Assembly (NCBI GenBank): GCA_030427525.1
Contig: JAUIBD010000002.1
Coordinates: 1 to 64,000 of the forward strand
DNA length: 64,000 bases
Source: a bacterium
Lineage (GTDB): Bacteria; Patescibacteriota; Saccharimonadia; Saccharimonadales; Saccharimonadaceae
Direction of reading: 5' to 3'
Part shown: positions 17,024-19,235 of the stretch, piece after piece
Numbering within the stretch: the stretch's first letter is position 1
Layout: the number at the start of each line of letters is the position of its first letter
Notes under the pieces: model-generated
Database searches by the model: none
What the model was told of the DNA's origin: nothing
Seen by the model: only the letters and a program-made list of their open reading frames with translations
Position numbers and translations under genes: made by a program

Positions 17024-17557
17024 CTACAAAGTTGCCCTGTAGGCCGTGGCTATTTCTGGAATCATTATTTTGTGGTGTTCTAAGGTAGATTCTGGCAGAT
17101 TTTCGACTGAGAAAAATTTACCGTCGAGTTTCGTCTCGTCAGTAGTCTCCACGAGTACATAATGTACTAGATCGAGTTCGCGACCTCTAGTTACATCCCA
17201 AAATTTCATAGTGACAAAAGCTGGTTCAGACACACAACGCAGCCCTTCTAGTTCATCTTTCAGTACACGCTCAATCCCGGTCTTAAGGCTGCCTTCTTCG
17301 TCCGAAGAACGAATAATTGTACCGGGAATATGCCAGCCGTTCGGCCAATGTGGGTCATTTTCGGGGCGTTGTGTTAGATAAATTTCAAGCTGGCCGTTGA
17401 CTATTCGTAGAGGTGCGACTTCCATACAAGGCATCGTTACCAACCTTGCAACCGCCCAAAAAATAGGCTGCGGCAGGTAGCCCCGCGGCAAGCGTGCCAG
17501 CATATCTGCAACGTTTTGGATTTCTTGTTCAGTGAGTGTTTGGTTTTGGTCAGACAT
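17024..17557 (-). CDS. Nudix-like hydrolase with a degenerate Nudix box
   Basis: 177 residues. The fold pattern is recognisable: LRIVNGQLEIYLTQRPEND, NGWHIPGTIIRSSDEEGSLK, then TGIERVLKDELEGLRC where the canonical REUxEExG helix should be. Here the box is degenerate: LKDELEG keeps some acidic residues but lacks the usual RE..EE set. It may bind or hydrolyse a nucleotide-sugar with altered metal ligation or be inactive. It is convergent with the cupin gene and divergent from the GC-rich Nudix gene at 17682. Base use is like the rest of the window. Confidence 0.6.
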   Translation of the reverse strand: MSDQNQTLTEQEIQNVADMLARLPRGYLPQPIFWAVARLVTMPCMEVAPLRIVNGQLEIYLTQRPENDPHWPNGWHIPGTIIRSSDEEGSLKTGIERVLKDELEGLRCVSEPAFVTMKFWDVTRGRELDLVHYVLVETTDETKLDGKFFSVENLPESTLEHHKIMIPEIATAYRATL

Positions 17558-17606
17558 ATGCTAGAGATTATGTCAGGTCTACCCCCATAAAACAAGTCCC
17601 AGACTA

Positions 17607-17634
17607 TTGACTTTTTTATACTTTTTGCTATAAT
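17607..17634 (+). promoter_or_regulatory. Promoter of the GC-rich Nudix gene
   Basis: TTGACT (17607-17612), 16 bases, then TGC-TATAAT (hexamer 17629-17634). It has the same TTGACT plus T-run style as the promoters at 59516 and 62953, so the promoter is native in style although the gene is not. Confidence 0.75.
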
Positions 17635-17681
17635 ATACAATAGTCTCAACCCCGAGGCTCATGTTCGAAGGAGTACCTTTC

Positions 17682-18428
17682 ATGTCCAATTCCACCACCC
17701 TGCCCGTGATCGCTGTCCCGGCTGGCGTACCGGAGGGCTTCGTCCTGCCGGACATCCCCGAGGGGATGTTCATGGCGAAGGCCTACCCCGCCGACGCCGA
17801 CGAGCAGCAGCACGTGCTGATGCGGACGCCCGATGGTGCGCTCGTGCTGTACAACGGCGACCCGAGGTTCAACATCTGGACGATCTTCGCCTGGATGGAC
17901 GCCGGCGCCTTCCAGTACGTCGCGCCCTTCCAGCACGAGAACGGCGGTGGCGGCAACACCAGCCTGCCGTTCAGCCTCGTCTGGAACGACGACCACACCA
18001 AGGTCATCGACATCATGGTGGTCCTGTGGGGTCGCCCCCGCAAGACCATCCTCGACGACAACGGTCAGCCCGACCTGAGCTGGCTCGAGGTCAAGGGCGG
18101 CTTCTCCAACCAGGGGGAGGCGCGCAAGGCGGGTGCCGACCGCGAGCTCTCCGAGGAGAGCAGCGGTGTGAAGCCCGGCGAGCACTTCGAGACCAGCGTG
18201 GCACGGACGGCCATCAACCGGGCCACCAGCGTGCTGCTCGACAGCGACGAGGGCGTCGCGAACTTCGCGTTCGAGATGACGGACGCGAAGCTGGCCGAGT
18301 TCGAGGCCAACCCCGACGACCGCATCATGTCGATCTGGGAGGTCACGGTGAGCCGCGACAGCCTGGCCAAGGCGGCCGCCTTCGACCTGCTCGCGTGGGT
18401 CCGGCGGAACTACCCCACGGCCTTCTGA
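17682..18428 (+). CDS. High-GC Nudix-type hydrolase, likely acquired by transfer
   Basis: 248 residues from the ATG at 17682, eight bases after AAGGAG (17668-17673); an upstream in-frame ATG at 17661 lacks such a site. The Nudix box region is LEVKGGFSNQGEARKAGADR then ELSEESSGV, with G-x5-E-x7-RE-x-x-EE present and one extra residue before the final G. The N-terminal half (about 1-110) is unfamiliar. Codons end almost always in G or C (GTC, CTG, GAC, CCG), and 17881-17940 counts 40 G+C of 60, against 30 of 60 at 16561-16620. Such composition is foreign here and typical of actinobacteria. The substrate is unknown. The transcript runs into the hammerhead ribozyme. Confidence 0.8.
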   Translation: MSNSTTLPVIAVPAGVPEGFVLPDIPEGMFMAKAYPADADEQQHVLMRTPDGALVLYNGDPRFNIWTIFAWMDAGAFQYVAPFQHENGGGGNTSLPFSLVWNDDHTKVIDIMVVLWGRPRKTILDDNGQPDLSWLEVKGGFSNQGEARKAGADRELSEESSGVKPGEHFETSVARTAINRATSVLLDSDEGVANFAFEMTDAKLAEFEANPDDRIMSIWEVTVSRDSLAKAAAFDLLAWVRRNYPTAF

Positions 18429-18576
18429 CGTCGGCCAGCTCGATGCTTCGCGGTGGCATCGATCTTCGTCAACCAGGCGGAGAGAACGACCATTCCATGG
18501 GTCACACCGAAGGCTACCCGCGCCTCAAGCGGTACCGATACACGTGAAGCACCCTTCGACTGCTCCGTGTGTCGGA
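18429..18576 (+). other. GC-rich 3' flank of the transferred gene with strong hairpins
   Basis: No gene is supported. The composition remains GC-rich up to about 18570 and then drops. A hairpin CGATGC/GCATCG (18441-18446 with 18456-18461) lies after the stop. A second, CGACTG-C-TCCG with CGGA-A-CAGTCG (18557-18567 with 18573-18583, loop TGTGT), overlaps the 5' strand of ribozyme stem III. Confidence 0.55.
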
Positions 18577-18636
18577 ACAGTCGTTCTACAATTGTGTAAT
18601 TGTACTGATGAGTCCAAAAGGACGAAAACGAGCTGT
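18577..18636 (+). ncRNA. Type III hammerhead self-cleaving ribozyme
   Basis: All conserved core parts are in place. Stem III: ACAG-TCGTT (18577-18585) with AACGA-g-CTGT (18627-18636, preceded by GAA), one bulged G at 18632. Cleavage-site residue C17 is 18586, after U16.1 at 18585 (a UUC site). Stem I is a closed hairpin TACAATT/AATTGTA (18587-18593 with 18598-18604) with loop GTGT. Core CTGATGA is 18605-18611. Stem II is GTCC/GGAC (18612-18615 with 18620-18623) with loop AAAA. Core GAA is 18624-18626 and A15.1 is 18627, pairing with U16.1. Stems I and II are closed and stem III is open, so it is type III. It lies 258-50 bases after the Nudix stop and upstream of the rfbC -10. Confidence 0.88.
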
Positions 18637-18655
18637 CTACCCCGATATCTTTTGC

Positions 18656-18661
18656 TATAAT
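18656..18661 (+). promoter_or_regulatory. Extended -10 of the rfbC-rfbD-rfbA-ugd operon
   Basis: TGC-TATAAT (hexamer 18656-18661); a 17-base spacing would place a poor -35 (CTGTCT) on the last bases of the ribozyme. GGAGG at 18672-18676 follows, ten bases before the ATG at 18687. Confidence 0.7.
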
Positions 18662-18686
18662 AGTTCTAGATGGAGGAATGCTGCTG

Positions 18687-19235
18687 ATGGCCGATTTAGC
18701 AATAGAACCTACCCCTATTCCGGGACTTTTTGTGTTGCGCTTGCCCGTACACGGCGACAACCGTGGATGGTTTAAAGAGAACTATCAAAAAGAAAAAATG
18801 GAGGCTCTTGGACTGCCAAAGCTTGATGTAGTGCAAAACAACATCAGTTTCAACGCCGATACAGGCACCACGAGAGGCCTGCACGCCGAACCGTGGGAAA
18901 AGTATATTTCAGTGGCAAACGGCTCGGTATTTGGCGCGTGGGTCGATTTGCGAAAAGGCGACTCATTTGGTGCAACCTTTAGTATTGAAATCACTCCAGA
19001 AGTTGGCATTTACGTGCCTCGTGGTGTTGCCAATGGTTACCAAACACTCGAACCGAATGTGGCCTACACCTACCTAGTAAACGAGCATTGGTCGCCCGAG
19101 GCAAAATACACCTTCGTGAATTTGTTTGATGAGACGGTAAATATACAGTGGCCAATTGCCAAAGACAAAGCAATTATTTCAGAAAAAGATGCTGGGCACC
19201 CGATGCTTGGTGACGTAATTCCAATGGAGGTCTAA
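18687..19235 (+). CDS. rfbC: dTDP-4-dehydrorhamnose 3,5-epimerase
   Basis: 182 residues from the ATG at 18687, chosen because GGAGG lies ten bases before it; the ATG at 18678 would be only one base from that site. RmlC cupin features: RGWFKENYQKEKME, NNISFNADTGTTRGLHAEPW with the catalytic His, VNGSVFGAWVDLRK-like ANGSVFGAWVDLRKGDSFG, and PRGVANGYQTLEPN. It epimerises C3 and C5 of dTDP-4-keto-6-deoxyglucose. Stop and next start share one base (TAATG), so translation with rfbD is probably coupled. Confidence 0.95.
   Translation: MADLAIEPTPIPGLFVLRLPVHGDNRGWFKENYQKEKMEALGLPKLDVVQNNISFNADTGTTRGLHAEPWEKYISVANGSVFGAWVDLRKGDSFGATFSIEITPEVGIYVPRGVANGYQTLEPNVAYTYLVNEHWSPEAKYTFVNLFDETVNIQWPIAKDKAIISEKDAGHPMLGDVIPMEV

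Follow-up and report, generated by a model that had tools for sequence, protein, structure and literature searches.

What would a self-cleaving ribozyme do between two protein-coding genes of a saccharibacterium? Reviews leave the roles of prokaryotic hammerheads open and point to phages (PMC6155905, PMC3088659, PMC10085705). A sequence-only reading of our window, a stretch of 64,000 nucleotides from a Saccharimonadaceae genome, had placed a type III hammerhead behind a Nudix-like gene and before the rfbC promoter, a location that sequence reading and a promoter scan uphold, and every element of the ribozyme is borne out letter for letter. It occupies 18577-18636 on the + strand, where stem III pairs ACAG-UCGUU (18577-18585) with AACGA-CUGU (18627-18636) through 9 bp with one bulged G (18632), stem I pairs 18587-18593 with 18598-18604 (7 bp, loop GUGU), and stem II pairs 18612-18615 with 18620-18623 (4 bp, loop AAAA). 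Between the helices lie C17 (18586), the CUGAUGA core (18605-18611) and GAA (18624-18626), with A15.1 (18627) pairing with U16.1 (18585). CUGANGA, GAA, the A15.1-U16.1 pair and H17 are thus all present, by sequence and in the alignment to Rfam RF00008 (Hammerhead_3), and of the three helices stems I and II are closed and stem III is open, the type III arrangement; matches to RF00008 and to a model of relatives (R2, below) likewise sustain this assignment and the predicted cut at 18586/18587. The minimum free energy structure computed by RNAfold consists of exactly these helices, and the ribozyme folded together with the hairpin upstream of it (18535-18575) is more stable than shuffled sequences (z = −4.07).

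Comparison with covariance models, which the earlier reading had proposed as a check, gave a divided answer. RF00008 aligns over its full length with 37.5 bits (E 1.1e-6 in 401 bases; E 6.2e-7 when the whole genome is searched), but its gathering score is 48.5 bits, so that a default Rfam scan reports nothing here and the window's ribozyme falls outside RF00008 at the curated level, being a hammerhead by mechanism and structure. Model R2, built from relatives only and leaving out both the window copy and that of its closest relative, G017, scores the two at 66.7 bits (E 5e-21, such E-values being rough) and 71.9 bits, respectively. The 23-nt core with stem II had no chance match in 100 shuffles, even with 3 mismatches allowed. 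In our judgement the E-value and the covariation described below outweigh the formal threshold failure: by sequence and structure this is a genuine type III hammerhead, and it is very probably active in self-cleavage. Core, helix order and NUH cleavage triplet are identical to those of RF00008 type III ribozymes (sTRSV-like, and known in bacterial intergenic regions), whose short stem I and II loops it shares; it scores under that family's gathering score, however, and belongs to a compact subfamily, with a 7-bp stem I carrying a GUGU-like loop and a 4-bp stem II, that is concentrated in Patescibacteria.

Among 295 genomes of the family, 55 contain RF00008 matches at E ≤ 0.001, with up to eight in one genome. 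Pattern-based reading of loci yielded 45 distinct type III hammerheads, 33 of which align gap-free over 57 columns, and in these the stem covariation that the sequence-only reading had called for is strong: all three helices covary, and both partners vary in 15 of the 19 pairs, although homologues were chosen partly by pairing (at least three pairs per stem), so that pair counts lean towards structure. Shuffling lowers the covariation score from 0.75 to 0.24, and sliding the pairings brings it to 0.13 or less; over the 7 bp of stem I, 98% of cells are paired, while slid controls collapse. Model R1, built from the 33, matches 44 of 380 genomes sampled phylum-wide, in many families, and matches the window's own genome at four places, one of them weak; two further clear hammerhead copies occur in that genome. 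Across 84,980 species genomes, the 23-nt core pattern occurs in at least 115 stretches, mostly from Patescibacteria among the matches listed, a taxonomic statement that rests on record titles: of 80 titles, about 60 carry Patescibacteria names, 15 are unnamed bacteria and 5 lie elsewhere (Phycisphaerales, Deinococcales, Polynucleobacter, Pseudomonas and Desulfotomaculum). The literature that we searched, mostly open-access, held no paper joining hammerheads with Saccharibacteria, Patescibacteria or the candidate phyla radiation, in keeping with the earlier remark that none was known from Saccharibacteria; hammerheads of this kind nevertheless recur across Patescibacteria, and the window copy is therefore not an isolated case. 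IMG/VR viral contigs also contain many hammerheads, and several lie together on single contigs (for example L213, L231, L255, L266 and L281). A recurrent 20-nt word, GATCRGATTTGCCTCTCGAG, was also observed several tens of nucleotides 3′ of hammerheads (L003 8642-8662 on the − strand, L005, L008, L016 and L032), in many cases with a variable hairpin behind it; when one mismatch is tolerated, 5 of 198 family genomes have a single occurrence, in four of them directly behind a hammerhead.

The ribozyme ends a compact arrangement of parts, all on the + strand. A promoter at 17607-17634 (TTGACT, 16 nt, TATAAT, with TG before the −10 box; 11 of 12 consensus letters), conserved in G017, is followed by a hairpin at the predicted transcript 5′ end (17642-17659; AGUCUC-AACCCC-GAGGCU in the whole-unit fold), where G017 has a hairpin of different sequence, and by a Shine-Dalgarno site (GAAGGAG, 17667-17673) 8 nt before the ATG at 17682, the best reading of the start. 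The gene (17682-18428) encodes a 248-aa Nudix-box protein (GFSNQGEARKAGADRELSEE) and is 67% GC with GC3 0.95, against a mean GC3 of 0.46 (sd 0.077) for ORFs in 425 kb of the same genome. The protein contains the Nudix box G-x5-E-x7-RE-x2-EE; a Pfam search with it gave no match, while its homologue L038 matches Pfam NUDIX at 5e-11. One nucleotide before the ribozyme ends the 3′ hairpin (18535-18575), whose 10-bp lower stem is compensated in G017, and the 112 nt before the ribozyme fold at −36.8 kcal/mol, against −26.4 for the 112 nt after it. Beyond the ribozyme, the only hammerhead that R2 finds in the window, come the −10 box of the rfbC operon (TGCTATAAT, 18656-18661, an extended −10), kept in G017 and in a ribozyme-free relative, G122, and the rfbC-like gene (18678-19235), first of the downstream dTDP-sugar operon and ordinary in GC (GC3 0.49). 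No intrinsic terminator (a GC-rich stem followed by a T-run) was found on the + strand in 17500-18800, including after the Nudix gene. The complete ribozyme, its covariation, the order of the parts, the GC anomaly and the absence of a terminator are thus read from the sequence itself.

Some candidate accounts of this unit's origin were set aside. One was a cassette bounded by the direct repeats GTCTACCCC (17578 and 18634); the repeat is not kept in G017. Another was recent import from phages or plasmids: a search of 50,697 phage records with the G017 Nudix gene found no homologue, nor did a search of 72,556 plasmid records with the window gene. In PHROGs the unit proteins tested have no convincing phage match, the weak matches obtained being those of one other unit.

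Comparison of the same rfbC site among relatives shows which parts persist. The corresponding Nudix gene of G017 is also 67% GC; its protein is only ~33% identical to the window's, while the hammerhead is nearly identical, the 3′ hairpin carries compensatory changes and the promoters are the same, so that between the window's genome (G000) and G017 the ribozyme is conserved better than the adjoining protein-coding gene. At this site G096 has an orthologue of the G017 Nudix gene (73% identity) and no ribozyme, its unit ending instead in GAGCGCACC-AAGCC-AGGTGCGCTC-TTTC, a hairpin and T-run resembling an intrinsic terminator. G122, with an rfbC protein 99% identical to that of G017, has a different GC-rich Nudix gene, inverted and without a ribozyme, and G167 has no unit at all. 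The unit therefore turns over at the rfbC site, where, on these comparisons, ribozyme and terminator appear interchangeable.

If the unit turns over, is its composition peculiar to this locus? In 101 cases a same-strand ORF ends no more than 450 nt before the hammerhead; these ORFs lie above the local background by 0.072 in GC (p 1.6e-14) and 0.154 in GC3 (p 3e-15), whereas the same-strand gene 3′ of the hammerhead is ordinary (GC3 +0.017, p 0.79); a repeat analysis gave +0.151 for the 5′ gene versus +0.033 for the 3′ gene (difference p 7e-9). These values come from simple ORF calling and from loci that are not phylogenetically independent, and the rule has exceptions: 26% of upstream genes exceed background GC by no more than 0.03, the copy on contig 29 of the window's own genome sits behind a 44%-GC gene, and on viral contigs the upstream GC3 effect is much weaker (+0.045). 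The polysaccharide locus, which the sequence-only reading had named as the setting, is incidental, the association being with atypically GC-rich, self-contained gene units; as a phylum-wide association of hammerheads with a GC-rich 5′ gene, it appears to be new. In a minority of related loci (L045 and L051) the order is reversed, with promoter, hammerhead, GC-rich gene and terminator in succession; there the ribozyme stands at the unit's 5′ end, and 3′-end formation is therefore not its sole use. As a separate observation, GC-rich units 5′ of the hammerheads in L187 and L199 encode, by reading, VWA-like, kinase-like, ThiF/E1-like and ubiquitin-like proteins, a set possibly belonging to conjugation or defence.

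We propose that self-cleavage probably gives an autonomous accessory mRNA its 3′ end and so separates the Nudix unit from the rfbC operon. The near-consensus promoter would start a short autonomous unit consisting of the GC-rich Nudix-box gene and a stable hairpin, and the ribozyme would cut at 18586/18587, yielding upstream the Nudix mRNA with the hairpin and a 2′,3′-cyclic phosphate at its 3′ end, and downstream the ribozyme body with a 5′-OH, continuing into rfbC, which has its own promoter. Replacing the intrinsic terminator of relatives, the ribozyme would both define and protect the mRNA 3′ end, and would keep the housekeeping operon that follows apart from an accessory gene of foreign appearance. 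From these data we infer cleavage in the cell, and 3′-end formation as the selected function.

Could the ribozyme instead act on its downstream side, trimming read-through RNA so that rfbC mRNA receives a 5′-OH leader made of the ribozyme body, which would tune stability or translation? The cut falls ~80 nt before the start region of rfbC itself, and in some loci a ribozyme directly behind a promoter would yield a 5′-OH mRNA. We nevertheless consider such a role unlikely, given that rfbC's own promoter sits 3′ of the ribozyme and is kept in G122 without any ribozyme, and that across loci it is the 5′ genes, not the 3′ genes, that are remarkable in composition.

Formation of a 3′ end also accounts for the locus better, in our estimation, than a retrozyme-like mobile or circular-RNA element, in which tandem hammerheads would excise a unit-length RNA that is circularised and spreads. 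Hammerheads do occur in clusters, several of which share stem III (for example in G140 and G026), and the differing or missing unit at the rfbC site of close relatives could be read as mobility. Yet in the array units that we read closely, a promoter of the unit's own follows the preceding ribozyme, the window's unit encodes a Nudix-box protein, and its single ribozyme leaves the window without the two flanking copies that such an element calls for. Circularisation by RtcB was rejected, since a search for this RNA ligase (PF01139), with a working control, came up empty in all 14 genomes examined from the genus. Taken together, this reading is very improbable.

The unit is one of a wider class. 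A distinct high-GC group (GC3 0.71-0.93) of about ten ORFs stands out in 425 kb of the window's genome. Those of its members that were inspected closely look like stand-alone units, each with a promoter and a 3′ hairpin of its own, and only the window's has a ribozyme; most of the group do without one, so that a ribozyme is not required. Some units have complementary mRNA ends, with a leader word, GACAAGCAG, and a tail word, CTGCTTGTC, whose pairing occurs 34 times in 1.59 Mb versus 0.07 times for shuffled words, a count that includes both strands and so stands for 17 elements, a few lying in loci that overlap. A tail tends to match the upstream region of its own unit better than that of another: 28 tails out of 142 rank in the top 1% (p 3.5e-9), although hairpins formed locally contribute part of this signal. 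Between one pair of orthologues G-C is replaced by A-U, a compensatory change, whole-unit folds give a panhandle probability near 1 for three units, and in some units the leader/tail pairing covers the Shine-Dalgarno site. The window's own unit has just 0.9 expected pairs between its ends, and we therefore claim a panhandle for other units and not for this one. We likewise rejected the idea that a complementary segment farther upstream, such as the window contains, captures the 3′ end after cleavage: over 142 units the mean rank is 0.51, which gives no general signal.

Several further features of such units were observed in passing. In L035, L044, L129, L144, L147 and L198 the 3′ arm AUGUCUGCUUGUCA can pair either with the 5′ leader or with a competing local copy in the tail, the GU-rich UGGCAAGUGGAUAUGGG, giving two alternative structures beside the ribozyme. 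On contig 2 of the window's genome (L360 17970-18200), a third clear hammerhead ends a unit of ~150 nt, with promoter, Shine-Dalgarno site, a 9-codon ORF and a large hairpin, whose leader and tail pair over the Shine-Dalgarno site and which resembles an emptied unit. Units of G140 without a hammerhead carry a recurring 3′ element (L036 1325, 5755 and 6310), GGCGCGAG-TTTAGTTGATGTGCG-AA-GCTTTCCAAC-...-CGCGCC and then a T-run, a terminator variant or other structured RNA. A GC-rich gene at L373 15700-16851 (− strand) encodes a protein with a signal-peptide-like start and no Pfam family, with a second copy, 56% identical, in the same genome, that of the window (L382).

Why are these genes so GC-rich? 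Orthologues retain GC3 0.87-0.96 while neighbouring genes stay near 0.5 and are synonymously far diverged. For one GC-rich pair, between the window's genome and G138, dN is 0.149 and dS 0.217, against dN 0.07 and dS 0.7-1.5 for neighbours; the Nudix genes of G017 and G096 differ by dN 0.195, like rfbC (0.205), with dS 0.41 versus saturation. This pattern fits synonymous-site constraint combined with fast protein change, although a more recent transfer of the unit may also account for the G138 pair. High-expression codon bias was rejected as the cause, ribosomal protein genes of the window's genome having GC3 0.47-0.48. Nor need translation take place elsewhere for want of tRNAs: those that read the C- and G-ending codons used are encoded in that genome, and the GC-rich genes can therefore be translated at home.

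It is conceivable that the units are protected mRNAs for translation in a GC-rich host, the cell on which these epibionts live, with the ribozyme providing a clean, structured RNA end that would serve putative export. The retained GC3, the insufficiency of high expression alone as an explanation, and the pairing of 5′ leader and 3′ tail in several units, in some over the Shine-Dalgarno site, would suit such a role; the home-encoded tRNAs, the weak pairing of the ends in the window's unit and the fact that repeated gene import from GC-rich donors would also give high GC speak against it, and we regard it as a long shot. The broader proposition, that Patescibacteria produce self-contained GC-rich mRNAs, structured, often paired and with hammerhead-cut ends, which would be made by the epibiont and translated in its GC-rich host, seems to us equally speculative. 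Finally, although it is still unproven what bacterial hammerheads do (PMC3088659, PMC6155905), a chance relic between two genes, whether decayed or selectively neutral, is extremely improbable for a ribozyme with an intact core, complete helices, strong covariation across homologues and better conservation than the adjoining gene.

Formation of a 3′ end by the ribozyme invites comparison with several known systems. Like the phage-linked or clustered bacterial hammerheads (Perreault 2011, PMC3088659; phage-gene link, PMC10085705), those described here are intergenic and sometimes several to a locus, but they associate with GC-rich stand-alone genes. The hammerhead of mammalian Clec2 3′ UTRs cuts in the 3′ untranslated part of an mRNA (PMC6155905), a position like that proposed here, whereas the window's ribozyme is contiguous, compact and bacterial, and is followed by the next gene's promoter. 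The layout of the unit has a parallel as well, as a lone, foreign-looking gene with a promoter and a 3′ end signal. Phage insertions of the 'moron' type are likewise single foreign-looking genes with their own promoter and 3′ end signal, placed between resident genes; the window's unit differs from them in lying on a chromosome and in having a ribozyme as its proposed 3′ end signal.

The function of bacterial hammerheads has been open since their discovery, with phages and ribozyme clusters as the known leads. In a hammerhead-rich phylum of reduced, mostly epibiotic bacteria, these ribozymes mark a recognisable gene class, lone, promoter-equipped, strikingly GC-rich and fast-evolving, and a vague question thereby becomes a testable one: whether the ribozyme acts as a former of mRNA ends, and why these genes have such unusual ends and codons.
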